A stretch of 53,759 bases of DNA from Methanobrevibacter sp. (lineage in GTDB: Archaea > Methanobacteriota > Methanobacteria > Methanobacteriales > Methanobacteriaceae), in contig NZ_JAFQQZ010000023.1 in assembly GCF_017410345.1 (NCBI RefSeq), forward strand, positions 1 to 53,759, in the 5' to 3' direction. A program made the position numbers and the translations under genes. The first letter of the stretch is position 1, and each line of letters opens with the position of its first letter. The notes under the pieces are model-generated. The model ran no database searches. It saw only the letters and a list, made by a program, of their open reading frames with translations, and was not told the origin of the DNA. Below, one piece after another: positions 895 to 43,028 of the stretch.

Positions 895-2064
895 ATGAGT
901 GACAATATTTTCGAGGGACTTGACGAATATTTACCTATGGATGATAAGATTTTCAAGGATAAGAAACCTTTGGATCATCGTTTTTTACCTGATAATTTAC
1001 CTCATAGGAAAGAACAGATTACAGCAATTGCCAGGTATTGGGTAGAGGCGTTGAAAGGCACCACCCCATCAAACATAACAATCTATGGAAAGACAGGAAC
1101 CGGTAAGACAGCAGCTGCAAAGTTTGCTAAAGAGCAATTGATCGATGCGGCAAGGGAGAAGCCTGTTTCCATTAAGGTCGAATATGTTCGATGCACAGAC
1201 TTCAATACGGAATATCAGGTGCTCACCTACTTATGCCAGAAGTTAGGAAGGGACGTGCCAAGCCGTGGATGGACCAAAGGTGAGATTGTAAATGCCTTTA
1301 GGGATATCCTGAAAAGAAACGTTTATGGCAGAAACCTCATTTTGATTGTCATTTTGGACGAGATTGACATTCTCCTTGAAAAGGATGGAGACGGATTGCT
1401 GTATACTCTTACAAGAACCGACAATATTGCCATCCTCTCAATCAGTAATTACCTCAATTTCAAGCAATTCATCAAGCCAAGGGTTTCAAGCAGCTTAATG
1501 GATAAGGAGATTGTTTTCCCACCTTACGATGCGGAACAGTTGGCTGATATCTTACAGGAAAGATCCAATCTTGCATTTTTCGAAGACACCCTTGAAGATA
1601 GCGTAATTCCATTGTGCTCAGCTATGGCTGCAAAAGAGGAAGGGGATGCAAGATATGCCCTTGACCTATTGGAAAGTGCAGGAGACATCGCTATTGACAA
1701 AGGTTCCGAAAAGGTTTTAGGGGAATATGTCCGTGAAGCTAAGGATGTCATTGAGTACAATAAGGTAAAGGATGTCATTGTCACTCTCCCTACACAACAG
1801 CAAAGGGTACTTGCAGCCATTCTAAAGTTGACCCAAGACGGAGAGGAGATCACTTCAGGCAAACTCTTCGAATCCTATAAGGAAATTTCAAAGGGAGATG
1901 CAGTAACCTATAGAAGAATCTTTGACTTTGTAAATGAGTTGGAGATGTTAGGTATCATTTCCACAAACACTGTATCAAAGGGAAGAGCTAAGGGAAGAAC
2001 CAATATCATCAATCTTCAAATTGATACAGACTTGCTTGAAGAGAATTTGTACAGCGTACTCTGA
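895..2064 (+). CDS. cdc6: Orc1/Cdc6 replication initiator
   Basis: AAA+ initiator that binds origin boxes and loads the MCM helicase. Walker A is GKTGTGKT at residues 65-72, Walker B is VILDEID with D155/E156, and a sensor-1 type Asn follows near residue 183. Residues from about 300 to the end fit the winged-helix DNA-binding domain. At 389 residues it has the normal family length. It is monocistronic, read away from the ORB-box spacer, which is the classical archaeal origin-initiator arrangement. The ATG at 895 is preceded only by a weak GAGATGATT-like ribosome site. A convergent gene follows after a T-rich spacer of about 50 bases. Function is confident; whether the chromosome carries a second orc1 cannot be seen. 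Confidence 0.96.
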
Positions 2065-11981: not shown

Positions 11982-14042
11982 TTAAATCATTTTTTTAATT
12001 TTATCAGCTGTCTTTACAGCCACTCTTGATTTATATTTCTCTATTCTTCTTTTTAATTTTTTATTTTCCTTTTCAATTTCCTTTTTGCTTAGCTTAAGTT
12101 CCTTTTTTTGCTTAATAAGAGTTTTATTTTCCTTGTTTAATTTTTTATTTTCATTCTTTAGTTTTTTATTTTCATTCTTTAGTTTTTTATTTTTGTCTTT
12201 TAATTCAATGATTTCATCATAGTATTCTGCTAGCTTATCTTCAGGTATAAAAACATCGTCTTCAATCAGTATTTTATTTCTGGCATTTTTAAACAATATT
12301 TTTCTATGGCCATTATAGAATTCGAATTTCTTTTCCAGCTGGAAAGATTTGAATTTCTTTGAAGTCAGCAATTCCCATTTTTTAACGGCTTGATTGAAAA
12401 TGTCTTCATATGGGATGATAAAGCTTATATCATATTCTCCAATGTAAAATTTGAAGTCTTCAATTTTTACAGGATATTTGACTCTATCAAAGCTTAACAG
12501 GTTTTCTATATAAACGTTATCTATTATTTCATTGGATGCTCCATTAAATTCAAAGGAATTATCCTTAAATGCAATGTATTTTATTTTAATTAAGACATCA
12601 CCTGTTTCTCTTGAATCAATAACAAATACCTTGTTCTTTCCAATGCCTATTTGAATGTCAAAATCATCAAATTCCAGAATTTCCCTTTTCGGATTTCTTA
12701 AATAGCCTTCCTTTTCAAATTCATCACAGATGTATTTAACTTTGATTTTTCCATGATTCTTATCCTTGACAAGAGCAATTGGAAGTATGATTTGATTGTT
12801 TTCATTTAAATCCAAGGAATATTCATTGTTTTCATTATCTATGAATTTTGCTTTGTTTTGATGAGGGTAATCTCCCATGTATTTGATTCTTTCACTGAAT
12901 TCTATGAAAAGATTTTCCTCGTCATAGGTAATTTCTTCCTTGTTAACAATAAGCTCCTCTTCTCTTGCATCCTTTATGAAATCAATATATTTGAAGTATT
13001 TTTCATCCAGATCTTCTGGTATATGTGGATTGTTCATTAATTCATTATAGTATGGTGAAAAATGGACTAATCCTTCGATATCCTCTTCTTCAACCATTTT
13101 ATAAATGACTCTTTGGAATGAATTCAATCTATCCTTTACATCCTCTGGGATTATGTCAATTAGTTCGTTGGTCTTTTCTATAAGTTCGGGGTAATAGTTT
13201 TCATCGTATTGATGGAAATTTCTATAGAATGCATTTAAATCATGATATAGCCATTTGAAATACAATTCCTTTTTTGTCTTTTCACTAAAATCGGATTGGT
13301 TCAGTATCTCTTTTGCCAGATGCAGATTCTTTAGCCTATCCTTAAAGTTCTTAACCTTAAAGCGCAGTTGAGTAATGGACAGGTTAGTGTTTTCTCTGAT
13401 TCTCCAATAATAGAAAGTGTCCTTGGAAACGGATATCTTATCTGTAAGGGTGTATGCCCTCAATGCAAAAGGACCATCTTCATATCCTTCCCTTTTTCCA
13501 TAAAATCTCAAGTTGTTTTTTTCAATGAATTCCCTTTTATAAAGCTTATTCCATACCACTATATCCCATAAAAGCTCAGGGTATTCTTCTATCTCAACCC
13601 TATCCAAATCCCTGTCAATATTTTTAAAGCTTTTTTTAAAGTATAGGCTGTCAGTGATGTTATATCGTCTAAGCCTTGCACTGAATGAAGTAACGATATC
13701 TGAATCATTCCTTTTTGCAAGTTCATATAACCTTTCACATCCGTCAGGAACTATATAGTCATCCGAATCGAAGAATTGGATATACTCTCCTTTAGCCAGA
13801 TCCAAACCGCAGTTTCTTGTTGTTGGAATCCCCTGATTCTCATTATGGATTGCATGGAAGTTTTCATAATCCAATGCATATCTTTCTATAATGTATCTTG
13901 AATTATCGCTGCTGCCATCATCAATCATAAATATTTCCATGTTTCCTATGAATGTCTGGTTCAGCAGAGAGTTCAATGATTCTTCAAGGTATTCCTCTAC
14001 ATTGTAAATAGGCACAATCACTGAGATTTTAGGATTTTCCAT
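11982..14042 (-). CDS. GT2 glycosyltransferase with C-terminal coiled coil
   Basis: Inverting GT-A transferase. Residues 1-300 carry VIVPIYNVEEYLEESLNSLL, MIDDGSSDNS and the DxD-type FFDSDDY. A middle region of beta-rich sequence (about 370-600) resembles the accessory domains of TarS/TarP-like teichoic acid glycosyltransferases. Residues from about 610 form a lysine-rich coiled coil with a heptapeptide repeat (KKLKNEN three times, encoded by 21-base DNA repeats near 12143-12195). The coiled coil suggests trimerisation or scaffolding at the membrane. It lies between LicD-like and LicC-like genes, 25 bases after the former, and probably glycosylates the polymer. Sugar and acceptor are unknown. 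Confidence 0.85.
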   Translation of the reverse strand: MENPKISVIVPIYNVEEYLEESLNSLLNQTFIGNMEIFMIDDGSSDNSRYIIERYALDYENFHAIHNENQGIPTTRNCGLDLAKGEYIQFFDSDDYIVPDGCERLYELAKRNDSDIVTSFSARLRRYNITDSLYFKKSFKNIDRDLDRVEIEEYPELLWDIVVWNKLYKREFIEKNNLRFYGKREGYEDGPFALRAYTLTDKISVSKDTFYYWRIRENTNLSITQLRFKVKNFKDRLKNLHLAKEILNQSDFSEKTKKELYFKWLYHDLNAFYRNFHQYDENYYPELIEKTNELIDIIPEDVKDRLNSFQRVIYKMVEEEDIEGLVHFSPYYNELMNNPHIPEDLDEKYFKYIDFIKDAREEELIVNKEEITYDEENLFIEFSERIKYMGDYPHQNKAKFIDNENNEYSLDLNENNQIILPIALVKDKNHGKIKVKYICDEFEKEGYLRNPKREILEFDDFDIQIGIGKNKVFVIDSRETGDVLIKIKYIAFKDNSFEFNGASNEIIDNVYIENLLSFDRVKYPVKIEDFKFYIGEYDISFIIPYEDIFNQAVKKWELLTSKKFKSFQLEKKFEFYNGHRKILFKNARNKILIEDDVFIPEDKLAEYYDEIIELKDKNKKLKNENKKLKNENKKLNKENKTLIKQKKELKLSKKEIEKENKKLKRRIEKYKSRVAVKTADKIKKMI

Positions 14043-30365: not shown

Positions 30366-30417
30366 AAAAATATATTAACGTAGAAAACTTTATCTCATAT
30401 AGTTTTCATACGAGGTG
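30366..30417 (+). promoter_or_regulatory. Permease promoter with overlapping inverted repeat
   Basis: A TATA-like AAAATATATTA at 30367-30377 is followed by an imperfect inverted repeat, CGTAGAAAACT at 30379-30389 and AGTTTTCATACG at 30401-30412. The expected start site (about 25 bases after the TATA) falls inside the repeat, and the ribosome site GAGGTG at 30412-30417 abuts it. This fits a repressor operator at the start site or an mRNA hairpin that controls the ribosome site. Confidence 0.55.
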
Positions 30418-30421
30418 TTTT

Positions 30422-31759
30422 ATGTTAAACAAATTTTTTAAATTAGATGAAAATAATACTGATCTAAAAACTGAGTTACTTGCAGGTTTAACAACCTTCT
30501 TGGCAATGGCTTATATTTTAGGTGTAAACCCAACCATGCTTGCTGAAGGTGGAATGCCTGCAACTGGAGTATTTTTCGCAACTGCTCTTGCTTCAGGGGT
30601 CTCTTGTATCATCATGGGTCTTATTTCCAAATACCCTGTTGGTCTTGCTCCTGGTATGGGTATGAATGCATTGTTTACCTATACTATCATTTTAGGTATG
30701 GGTAACACTTGGGAAACTGCGCTTGCAGCTGTATTCGTTTCAAGCATTATCTTCTTATTGATTACCATTTCCGGTTTAAGGGAAGCTATTCTCAATGCTC
30801 TTCCATTTGACTTAAAGTTAGCAATTGGTGCTGGTATTGGTTTCTTCTTGGCATTTATCGGACTCAAAGGTGCTGGAATTATCGTGGCTGACCCTGCTAC
30901 CTTAGTAGGTATGGGATCCATCTTATCCGCTCCTGCACTTTTAGCAGTAATCGGTATCTTGCTTACCTTGATCTTATACATTAAGAAAGTGCCTGCAGCT
31001 GTATTCCTTGGTTTAGTGATAACTGCAATCTTAGGTGTAATCTTTACATTATTCGGTTTCGGTGCTGGAGACACTTTAATGCCTGCTATTCCTACAGAAT
31101 TCGTTTCATTCGCTTTTGACACTTCTGTAGTCGGTGCATTTGCAACTGGATTTACCCAATTGTTCTCTAACATCCCTAACTTGATCATGATCTTGTTCTC
31201 ATTATTGTTCGTGACTTTCTTCGATACTACTGGAACCTTGATTCCTTTAGCAAACCAATGTGGTTTCGTAGATGAGGAAGGAAACGCTGAAGGTATTGAC
31301 AAAGCTTTCCTCGGGGACGCCATCAGTGGAATCATTGGTGCTATCTTAGGTACTTCAACCTTAACCGCATACGTGGAAAGTGCAACCGGTATCGGTCTTG
31401 GTGGTAGAACCGGATTGACCGCTGTATTCACAGGTATCTTCTTCTTGCTCGCACTTATCTTTGCTCCTACTGTCTTAGCATTGTTCACTTCTTCCGTAAC
31501 TGCTGCAGCATTGGTAATTGTAGGTATCTTAATGATCGTACAATTAAAAGAAGTAGACTGGGACAACATGGTAGTTGCAGCTTCCGTATTCATGACAATC
31601 ATCATGATGCTTTTAACCTACTCCATTTCCTTAGGTATCGCATGGGGATTCGTCACTTACGCAATTGCATCCATTGCTACCGGCAAAGCAAAAGAGTTCA
31701 GTCCAATCATGTGGATTATGGTTATCATATTTGCAATATACGTATTCTTCGGACTCTAA
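30422..31759 (+). CDS. NCS2-family purine (guanine/hypoxanthine) permease
   Basis: Multi-span membrane transporter of the AzgA/PbuG branch. Signatures are ELLAGLTTFLAMAYIL, NPTMLA, KYPVGLAPGMGMNAL, VTFFDTTGTLIPLA and GTSTLTAYVESATGIGLGGRTGL. About 12-14 hydrophobic segments fill 445 residues. It would import hypoxanthine, guanine or adenine for salvage. Codons favour ATC, TTC and GGT more than those of the neighbours, which suggests high expression. It is monocistronic, with its own promoter and a strong terminator. Uracil or xanthine as substrate is less likely because those NCS2 branches differ. Confidence 0.92.
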   Translation: MLNKFFKLDENNTDLKTELLAGLTTFLAMAYILGVNPTMLAEGGMPATGVFFATALASGVSCIIMGLISKYPVGLAPGMGMNALFTYTIILGMGNTWETALAAVFVSSIIFLLITISGLREAILNALPFDLKLAIGAGIGFFLAFIGLKGAGIIVADPATLVGMGSILSAPALLAVIGILLTLILYIKKVPAAVFLGLVITAILGVIFTLFGFGAGDTLMPAIPTEFVSFAFDTSVVGAFATGFTQLFSNIPNLIMILFSLLFVTFFDTTGTLIPLANQCGFVDEEGNAEGIDKAFLGDAISGIIGAILGTSTLTAYVESATGIGLGGRTGLTAVFTGIFFLLALIFAPTVLALFTSSVTAAALVIVGILMIVQLKEVDWDNMVVAASVFMTIIMMLLTYSISLGIAWGFVTYAIASIATGKAKEFSPIMWIMVIIFAIYVFFGL

Positions 31760-41198: not shown

Positions 41199-41849
41199 TT
41201 ATAAATGATTGAATAGTGTCCAGATTTCAGGATACTTTTCAGCTATTGCAGCATCTATCAGATTTGATGCCTCATTGCTTATGCTGAATTCAGGTTCGGT
41301 CTTTCTCAAGTACCTTAGCACAGCTGCAGATCTTGCTGACCATAATGTGATTCTTGGATTATTTTCCACAGTTTCGATGACTTCATCTACCAGTTTTTCC
41401 TCTTTTTCTGTAAGAAGACTACCAACTTCTTTTAAATCATCGGATGCTTCAATAATTTTGGTACTTTCTTCTGTCTCTTCATTTAAATCAACTGTAGAAT
41501 CAATATTTTTTACACTTGTTTTGGAGTTTATTTTTTCTTCATCATTTTCGCTATCCTCAGCGATTATTTCATCATCATTGAAGAAAACATTTGTGTAGTC
41601 AGAAGAGTCTTTAGGTTTTTCTTCTTCCTCCTCTTCATCAGCTGATTTTTCCAAAACCTGAATTTCATCCTCACCTTCAAATTCCTCTTCAACTTCTTCA
41701 ACCAGTTCCTCAAAAGTCTTGCTGTCTTCTTCAGCACTTTTCAATATGTCTTCTAAACTTATGCCTTCTTCTATTTCTGTCTCTTCAATATTTGGAATCA
41801 AGGAATCCAATCCTCTTCCCAATCCTGAATTCTTTTCCTTTTTAGCCAT
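41199..41849 (-). CDS. Acidic ParA-partner candidate with ParB-like N-terminal motif
   Basis: No family recognised as a whole. Residues 9-20 read GLGRGLDSLIPN, the conserved N-terminal motif that bacterial ParB/Spo0J uses to stimulate ParA/Soj ATPase. The ParB body (NP-QPR box, GERR CTP-binding motif, helix-turn-helix) is missing. A long Glu/Asp-rich disordered middle (20-150) follows, and the last 60 residues form a predicted helical domain (ITLWSARSAAVLRYLRK..). The gene starts 75 bases after parA, same strand. I infer a ParA-activating partner that uses another way to reach DNA, or none. Confidence 0.7.
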   Translation of the reverse strand: MAKKEKNSGLGRGLDSLIPNIEETEIEEGISLEDILKSAEEDSKTFEELVEEVEEEFEGEDEIQVLEKSADEEEEEEKPKDSSDYTNVFFNDDEIIAEDSENDEEKINSKTSVKNIDSTVDLNEETEESTKIIEASDDLKEVGSLLTEKEEKLVDEVIETVENNPRITLWSARSAAVLRYLRKTEPEFSISNEASNLIDAAIAEKYPEIWTLFNHL

Positions 41850-41924
41850 TTTACCAAACCCTTTCGTGTTTTCAAATAATTTATTCTAATATCGTAATCT
41901 TAATAATTGAAAATATTTCATCAT

Positions 41925-42698
41925 CTATTTTTCATCCATTTCCAACAATTCCTTTGCAAGCTTCAGGTAAGCTATTGACCCTTTGCTTTGGGGATCATAA
42001 ACTATGCAAGGCTTTCCGTAACTTGGGGCCTCTGCCAAGCGTATGTTCCTTGGAATGGTTGTGTTGAATACATATTCCTTGTCCTTGAAGTATTTCTTGA
42101 GTTCGGAATATACCTCTCTGCCTAACCTGGTTCTTGCATCATAGAGTGTTAAGAGTATGCCCTTTATTGGAGTTGGACTTCTTAGTCTTGTTTCCACAAG
42201 CTTGATTGTGTTCATGAGATCTGCCAATCCTTCAAGTGCAAAGTATTCCGCTTGAATCGGTATCAATACGCTGTCTGCAGCAATCAATGAGTTTATAGTT
42301 ATTATACCAAGTGATGGCGGCAAGTCTATAATGATGTAGTCGAAAATGCCTTTTATAGGTTCAAGAAGATTTTTAAGTGCAATGTGATAGTTTGCTTCCT
42401 TGCTCAATTCCACTTCGATTCCGCTTAAGTCAATATTGCTTGGAAGTATGAAAAGGTTTTCGATTTTTGTTGGAATTGTAGCTTTTTGAACACTGCATTC
42501 GTTTACCAAAGCTGTGTATACTGTCTTCTTGATTTCTGTCTTGTTTATTCCGAAACTTGTTGTTGCATTGGCTTGGGGATCCATATCGACTACGAGCACT
42601 GCCTTACCCATGGCAGCAAGTGATGTCGCCAGGTTCACCACAGTAGTGGTCTTTCCGCATCCGCCCTTCTGATTCATTACGGCAATTGTTTCTCCCAT
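41925..42698 (-). CDS. ParA/Soj-family chromosome-partitioning ATPase
   Basis: Deviant Walker A ATPase. KGGCGKTT is at residues 11-18 with the signature lysine, VDMDPQANAT follows (A' motif), and IIDLPPSLG is Walker B. EYFALEGL and RLAEAPSYGKP match Soj more than MinD, whose membrane helix is missing. 257 residues is the compact form without an N-terminal regulator domain. It probably positions or segregates chromosomes by cycling on DNA. AGGAGA precedes the ATG. A TTATAAC repeat cluster is upstream and the ParB-motif protein gene downstream, making a par-like locus. Confidence 0.9.
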   Translation of the reverse strand: MGETIAVMNQKGGCGKTTTVVNLATSLAAMGKAVLVVDMDPQANATTSFGINKTEIKKTVYTALVNECSVQKATIPTKIENLFILPSNIDLSGIEVELSKEANYHIALKNLLEPIKGIFDYIIIDLPPSLGIITINSLIAADSVLIPIQAEYFALEGLADLMNTIKLVETRLRSPTPIKGILLTLYDARTRLGREVYSELKKYFKDKEYVFNTTIPRNIRLAEAPSYGKPCIVYDPQSKGSIAYLKLAKELLEMDEK

Positions 42699-42756
42699 TA
42701 TATTAATTCTCCTTAGTATTTTTTCTTAAAATAAAGTGATTTTTTAATGAAAATTT

Positions 42757-42930
42757 CTAACTTATAACGAAAAAGTTAGCAATTATTTCTTATATATTAT
42801 AATTTATAACTTATAATATATAAGTTTTAAGTTATTTCTTATTACTTTTACTTTATACCTTATCATTTATAAGTTTTTATTTTTAACTTATTAGTTATAA
42901 CTTATAACTTATAACTTATTACTTATAACT
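42757..42930. repeat. TTATAAC tandem repeats and inverted repeats upstream of parA
   Basis: Five 7-base units in tandem (42895-42929): TTATAAC three times, TTATTAC, TTATAAC. Further copies of AACTTATAA and its complement are scattered at 42806-42835 and 42881-42894. CTAACTT (42757-42763) and AAGTTAG (42773-42779) form an inverted repeat close to the parA start. Together they fill the 378-base spacer between trpB2 and parA. A parA operator or centromere-like site are both possible. Confidence 0.75.
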
Positions 42931-43028
42931 AAAAAGTATTATAAAAAATGTGTGAAAAAATAGATAAAATAGATAAAAATATTAAAAAAAAAGAATAAAA
43001 AAGAGGGAGGTTTCACATTAAAGTGAAA

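Follow-up and report, generated by a model that had tools for sequence, protein, structure and literature searches.

A euryarchaeal SegAB pair with a ParB-like tail and a heptad array upstream: a predicted chromosomal segregation module in Methanobrevibacter

The Gene Pair and Its Distribution

We describe a gene pair of Methanobrevibacter sp. that we consider very probably to be a chromosomal DNA-segregation module of the euryarchaeal SegAB kind, in which SegB would assemble in rows on DNA heptads and activate ParA through its tails. The pair lies on contig NZ_JAFQQZ010000023.1 of RefSeq assembly GCF_017410345.1, of which a stretch of 53,759 nucleotides was analyzed as a whole and is referred to here as the window. 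Both genes are on the minus strand. The first, segA/parA (41,925–42,698), encodes a Soj-type ATPase of 257 amino acids (AAA_31, 2.4e-65) and 75 bp further downstream is a segB-type gene (41,199–41,849), whose product of 216 amino acids is made up of a ParB-like tail, an acidic linker and a SegB ribbon-helix-helix (RHH) domain. The pair is the euryarchaeal segAB, which is already on record in that phylum: two reports place segAB in Euryarchaeota and name Methanothermobacter thermautotrophicus (PMC5120986, PMC12284271). Membership in SegAB is known, and what goes beyond the literature searched, an earlier mention being possible, is the pairing of tail and ParA pocket together with the (TTATAA-S)n sites. 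The SegB homology, the conservation of tail and pocket, the arrays with their distribution and the distance to cdc6 were computed here.

Homologues of the segB-type gene were found in 49 of 61 related genomes, and within the phylum 108 of 115 genomes, covering 19 of 19 genera, have the SegB domain. In two of the seven genomes negative for the domain (G101 and G091), the upstream array runs into the end of the contig, so that segAB was probably missed by the assembly. The first-pass annotation of this DNA had staked its reading on co-occurrence with ParA and on conservation of the N-terminal motif among relatives. As to the former, ParA stands directly upstream of segB on the same strand at every testable locus (48 of 48 and 77 of 77, in two sets that share species). 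The two reading frames often overlap across the family. The family and genus names used for survey genomes (Sulfolobaceae, Thermococcus, Methanothermobacter-like, Methanothermus-like and Archaeoglobus-type) are inferred from kinship and sequence.

No bacterial-type ParB (TIGR00180) was detected elsewhere in this genome. One genome binned with the genus (G014, locus L175) carries a full bacterial-type ParB (TIGR00180, 1.4e-56), with no SegB detected; it is possibly a case of contamination, an incomplete bin or exchange.

The C-Terminal Ribbon-Helix-Helix Domain

The C-terminus of the 216-residue protein had been taken at first for a novel helical region. Homology searches replace this description with a SegB RHH DNA-binding domain at residues 148–216 (41,202–41,408, minus strand), recovered by phmmer, profile and Foldseek. 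With phmmer against PDB chains, Saccharolobus solfataricus SegB was matched (7duv, E = 2e-10; 7dv2, 4.9e-8) and there was no other credible match, and a profile built from twelve relatives found SegB at E = 3e-12. From this sequence homology, the last ~65 residues are assigned as an RHH domain homologous to SegB. The structural side is less firm and counts against our explanation. When a 74-residue AlphaFold2 (AF2) model was searched against 350,542 chains with Foldseek, the four best matches were all SegB, with weak E-values (0.12–0.38), and the AF2 monomer of the C-terminus has confident helices and no beta-strand, as would be expected when an RHH fold, which needs a dimer, is modeled as a monomer.

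Other assignments were considered for this protein. Neither a ParB domain in general nor the ParB/Srx CTP-binding domain or a helix-turn-helix (HTH) gave a match in Pfam and NCBIfam even at E < 1, in keeping with the first-pass view that the body of ParB is missing, and no library family scored above its cut-off. Weak Pfam matches to DUF3298 and ParM_N were rejected, being below the cut-off and within the low-complexity linker, and histone-like profile matches (H2B, E 0.1–0.9) were rejected as chance.

The annotation had further proposed a distinct archaeal segregation system unlike SegAB of Sulfolobus. That a ParA is paired here with a ParB-type tail on a protein with neither a ParB/Srx nor an HTH body stands. 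The second half fails: homology ties the C-terminus to SegB of Sulfolobus, and euryarchaeal SegAB is already known. We give almost no credence to a novel system unrelated to SegAB: all that speaks for it is that Sulfolobus SegB is only about 30% identical, and it is already refuted by the significant SegB homology and by the placement of SegAB in Euryarchaeota (PMC5120986). The pair does differ from Sulfolobus SegAB in its tail, its type of ParA and its predicted DNA site.

The SegB domain also occurs in other settings. In several families of Thermoproteota outside Sulfolobaceae, there are small orphan SegB-RHH proteins (L190, L191, L197–L202, L204–L207, L209–L219; ORFs of about 82–135 amino acids) that have no ParB-like tail and no adjacent ParA, and these might be chromatin or regulatory proteins. 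Locus L182 (G499), which stands behind a ParA, encodes a protein with two tandem SegB RHH domains and an acidic N-terminal region that is repeated. On the Methanohalobium evestigatum plasmid NC_014254.1 (L162/L184, G156), a SegB-domain protein is found that lacks the tail motif, and no ParA was recognized within the short stretch around its gene.

The ParB-Like Tail and the Acidic Linker

The 216-residue protein begins with MAKKEKNSGLGRGLDSLIPN, of which residues 10–18 (41,796–41,822, minus strand) read LGRGLDSLI, a ParB-type ParA-binding motif identified from the sequence and its conservation in homologues. In Myxococcus xanthus ParB, residues L11, L15, L18 and I19 are needed for ParA binding and R13 for stimulation, which is abolished in the R13A variant (PMC12462528). 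LGRGLDSLI agrees with every one of these residues. This fit upholds the first-pass reading of the N-terminus as ParB/Spo0J-like, and the ParA-stimulating activity is predicted from the same residues.

In the contig survey, 76 of 76 readable homologues have the motif among roughly their first 25 residues, a number that leaves out three cut by contig ends and one masked; survey matches that seemed to be tailless were rejected, as they turned out to lie at contig ends or in masked DNA. The motif arises in 6 of 45,600 shuffled N-termini, and chance does not account for it. Its consensus is LG(R/K/M/L)GLxxLI, and it is found in eight of eight Thermococcus SegB proteins as well as in Archaeoglobus-type members. 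The basic R/K position is occupied by M or L in 12 of 113 distinct SegBs, some of them Methanothermobacter-like, LGMGLDALI being such a natural variant; given the effect of R13A in M. xanthus, this weighs against our explanation. In Sulfolobaceae SegB, the motif is absent and the N-terminus reads MSELDFLLNRKK.

Between tail and domain lies the linker (residues 21–147; 41,409–41,789, minus strand). With 39% D/E it is indeed the long acidic region that had been noted at the outset. Its pLDDT is mostly 40–50, and in the AF2 model of the full protein confidence is low over most of residues 49–143, from which the linker is probably disordered. The full-length model was rejected as a Foldseek query, because with a disordered linker the result is meaningless. 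Across the family, 9 to 234 residues separate the motif from the RHH domain, and this segment is variable in the alignment; the whole SegB of Methanothermobacter has about 100 residues. Since its length is free to vary, constraint is placed on the two ends alone, the motif and the domain.

The ParA Partner and Its Tail Pocket

Searched against the PDB, the window ParA matched ParA chain 8ray (2e-75), Helicobacter pylori Soj (7e-65) and SegA 7dut (2e-18), and it is 49% identical to the protein of M. xanthus, 47% to that of H. pylori and 24–29% to Sulfolobaceae SegA. From its length and a D-to-A change, chain 8ray is taken to be M. xanthus ParA(21–274, D60A). Both the Walker motifs and the pocket for the ParB peptide are present in the window ParA. 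Mapped on M. xanthus, the pocket consists of Y61, D90, V96, E97, L130, I132, I135, L167 and L172, the corresponding M. xanthus residues being Y81, D110, V116, E117, L150, L152, L155, L187 and L192.

In M. xanthus numbering, Y81, E117, L150 and L187 are invariant in all 112 distinct motif-bearing pairs and L192 is found in 111 of them. Seven of seven Sulfolobaceae SegA proteins have a deletion of the segment with Y81 and other residues in place of L152, L187 and L192; the window ParA retains the region that is absent there. A second SegB-domain/ParA pair in Methanobacteriales (L041, G034:C1) has neither the tail motif nor heptads, and its ParA pocket is altered (Y81 to R, E117 to Y); it is possibly the segregation pair of a mobile element. 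The pocket of a second copy in G055 (L165) is intermediate. Two points count against our explanation here: beyond Sulfolobaceae there are few pairs without the motif for comparison, and their pockets give a mixed picture; and H. pylori ParA has an incomplete pocket, differing at several positions though it works with a ParB.

These data bear on whether the LG(R/K)GLxxLI tail might be convergent and not act as in bacterial ParB, with another part of SegB activating ParA. The motif is short, it lacks the basic residue in the 12 of 113 proteins mentioned, and Sulfolobus SegB, whose N-terminus is unrelated, stimulates SegA (PMC11229316). We nevertheless hold convergence to be quite improbable, as the tail is near-invariant where the linker is otherwise free to change, and the pocket is kept throughout the partners of motif-bearing SegBs and mostly lost in the motif-less Sulfolobaceae.

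A Heptad Array Upstream of parA

Inside the ~390 bp upstream of parA, about 27 degenerate heptads, (TTATAA-S)n, stand in tandem (42,753–42,941, minus strand). The array was identified by Tandem Repeats Finder (TRF), lag-7 identity and the run of heptads, and is predicted to be a SegB centromere or operator. This 7-bp array was not mentioned in the earlier annotation of the adjoining pair. TRF reports period 7 with 20.3 copies at 42,789–42,930. The identity at lag 7 is 0.61, compared to 0.39 ± 0.03 in dinucleotide shuffles, and the array is the strongest 7-periodic spot of the window. It holds seven matches to the 20-mer core, of which 100 shuffles gave none, and a genome-wide search for three heptads, allowing up to 3 mismatches, gave 22 matches, 21 of them inside it. 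Across the family, the lag-7 z upstream of parA averages 4.9 and exceeds 3 in 87% of 62 regions, versus a mean of 0.3 and 4% above 3 for 80 intergenic regions elsewhere; of the lags from 5 to 12, only 7 is prominent upstream of parA. Heptad arrays are retained in genomes of ~45% G+C.

Other known sites were sought in the window. There is no perfect or near-perfect copy of the parS palindrome TGTTTCACGTGAAACA, and the Sulfolobus sequence TCTAGA-S-TCTAGA is absent. Three parS-like 16-mers with 3 mismatches (275–290, 12,603–12,618 and 30,416–30,431), none of them palindromic, are probably chance; 0.3 would be expected, and three were reached in 1 of 100 shuffles.

For Sulfolobus SegB, the 2025 SegB ChIP study gives the ChIP-seq motif TCTAGA-S-TCTAGA (PMC12284271). 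Its palindromic hexamers recur every 7 bp and are separated by a G or C, which is also the layout of (TTATAA-S)n, derived without reference to the Sulfolobus motif. Sulfolobaceae segAB loci have heptads of the TCTAGAS type and no runs of TATAAST.

Dispersed Sites and the Distance to cdc6

Methanobrevibacter has a single long array only, and other genera have short sites of 3–10 heptads, mostly outside ORFs or at their edges. Three Methanothermobacter-like genomes (G043, G046, G048) carry four to five sites within 48 kb of segAB, and the Methanothermus-like genome G049 has six nearly identical ones 31–94 kb from segAB, with none directly upstream of parA. SegB-bearing Thermococcus genomes have four to eight sites, clustered near segAB in four of five; for the sites of G310 and G038, clustering is not significant. 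At least four heptads are present in 36 of the 39 dispersed sites extracted. Within Thermococcaceae, sites occur in five of five genomes with SegB and in none of 14 without it, a clean presence/absence contrast within one family, among genomes that are related and so do not count as independent events. When the pattern was reversed as a control, the Methanothermobacter-like and Thermococcus genomes gave 0. One 241-kb contig (C4, L260–L265) of G124, a 98% complete genome in which no segAB was detected, carries about ten (TTATAA-S)n sites.

The window also contains an orc1/cdc6 initiator gene, the expected marker of the replication origin (895–2,064, plus strand; TIGR02928, 1.5e-117; Cdc6_C and Cdc6_lid), at a distance of about 40 kb from segAB. 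Among the Methanobacteriales examined whose genomes are complete or nearly so, cdc6-1 and segAB are 9–85 kb apart, except in G038 (310 kb) and G049 (203 kb). Sites are also near cdc6 in Methanothermobacter-like genomes, and Thermococcus segAB is not near it. This last distance counts against our explanation, as do the unclustered sites of G310 and G038, the six sites of G049 with none directly before parA, and the sites of G124.

Could another factor, whether TATA-related, a replication protein or a different RHH regulator, bind the (TTATAA-S)n sites, which would then be neighbors of segAB simply by position? TTATAA is similar to archaeal TATA elements, both the arrays and the genomes that carry them are AT-rich, and G124 has sites with no segB detected. 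We regard such a binder as very unlikely in view of the all-or-none occurrence with SegB in Thermococcaceae, the hexamer-S-hexamer architecture shared with the Sulfolobus motif determined by ChIP, the persistence of arrays at ~45% G+C and the empty reversed-pattern control.

It is likewise unlikely, though to a lesser degree, that the pair is SegAB with arrays that serve mainly as an autoregulatory operator or as chromosome-organizing sites, segregation being minor or absent in these polyploid euryarchaea. The array is in the promoter region of parA in most genomes, Methanobrevibacter has its one array there and no others, and Sulfolobus SegB organizes chromosomes too (PMC12284271). However, the dispersed clusters near segAB, and near cdc6 in Methanothermobacter-like genomes, resemble parS and not one lone operator; in G049 a promoter array is lacking and the six sites are elsewhere; and a tail matched by a pocket is typical of a ParA-activating system.

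Comparison With Known Segregation Systems

With SegAB of Saccharolobus/Sulfolobus, the pair shares the homologous RHH domain, the gene order segA-segB and an unstructured N-terminus. In front of the operon, both have hexameric palindromes that repeat at 7 bp and are parted by a G or C, here as predicted SegB sites. Unlike the pair described here, Sulfolobus SegB does not have the LGRGLDSLI motif at its N-terminus, and SegA is a short ATPase (about 220 amino acids) forming a non-sandwich dimer, in contrast to the Soj-type protein of 257 residues, and has lost most of the tail pocket that is kept here. The DNA unit is TCTAGA there and TTATAA here, in longer contiguous arrays.

Bacterial chromosomal ParABS (Soj/Spo0J/parS) is alike in the type of ParA, in the ParA-binding tail motif and, for Methanothermobacter-like genomes, in an origin-proximal location with several dispersed sites. 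It differs in that the euryarchaeal partner has an RHH domain in place of the ParB/Srx CTPase fold and the HTH, and in that perfect or near-perfect parS is missing from the window. In the plasmid system delta/omega/parS of pSM19035, the RHH ParB omega uses contiguous heptads, four or more of which are needed for ParA activation (PMC9499535), a number that nearly all the sites extracted here reach. Both systems have an RHH centromere protein (a predicted one here), an N-terminal tail (activating in omega) and contiguous 7-bp repeats, but the one described here is chromosomal, its heptad is TTATAA-S, and the likeness to omega noted here is one of layout. The AspA-ParBA system of pNOB8 is also an archaeal ParA-based segregation system; it has three proteins, with a winged-helix AspA and a ParB-fold adaptor, none of which was found here.

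A Proposed Mechanism and Its Meaning

For the module proposed here, we infer that SegB dimers would bind contiguous (TTATAA-S)n through the RHH domain, packed one dimer per heptad. In this way, SegB would be loaded in a row along the array that precedes parA; in relatives, the dispersed sites near segAB would be loaded as well. Each dimer would offer two flexible N-terminal tails with LGRGLDSLI at their ends, and the ParB-like tails clustered in this way may activate the ATPase of nucleoid-bound ParA dimers through the conserved cleft. By this action, the region of segAB and the centromere would be moved by a ratchet. Autoregulation of the operon is probably a further function of the array. 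We predict that the (TTATAA-S)n arrays are a chromosomal centromere.

It seems likely that this is a composite euryarchaeal machine, in which a bacterial chromosomal ParA and a ParB tail have been grafted on an archaeal heptad-assembling RHH protein. The arrays would be the centromeres of Methanobacteria and of SegB-bearing Thermococcales, ranging from the one long array of Methanobrevibacter to sets of four to eight parS-like sites that are dispersed in Methanothermobacter-like, Methanothermus-like and Thermococcus genomes. Genera with (TTATAA-S)n sites are culturable, and Thermococcus and Methanothermobacter are genetically tractable. Reviews describe SegB as having no sequence similarity to bacterial proteins, and one structural study suggested a different mode of partner binding in archaeal than in bacterial ParAs (PMC9178275, PMC11229316). 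As the euryarchaeal tail and pocket look bacterial, the structure-based model of ParA activation would carry over to them and would be testable with peptides. For Thermococcus sibiricus, the 2025 SegB ChIP study reports no sites near segAB and supposes other sequences (PMC12284271); the (TTATAA-S)n sites would provide explicit coordinates for those supposed in Thermococcus.
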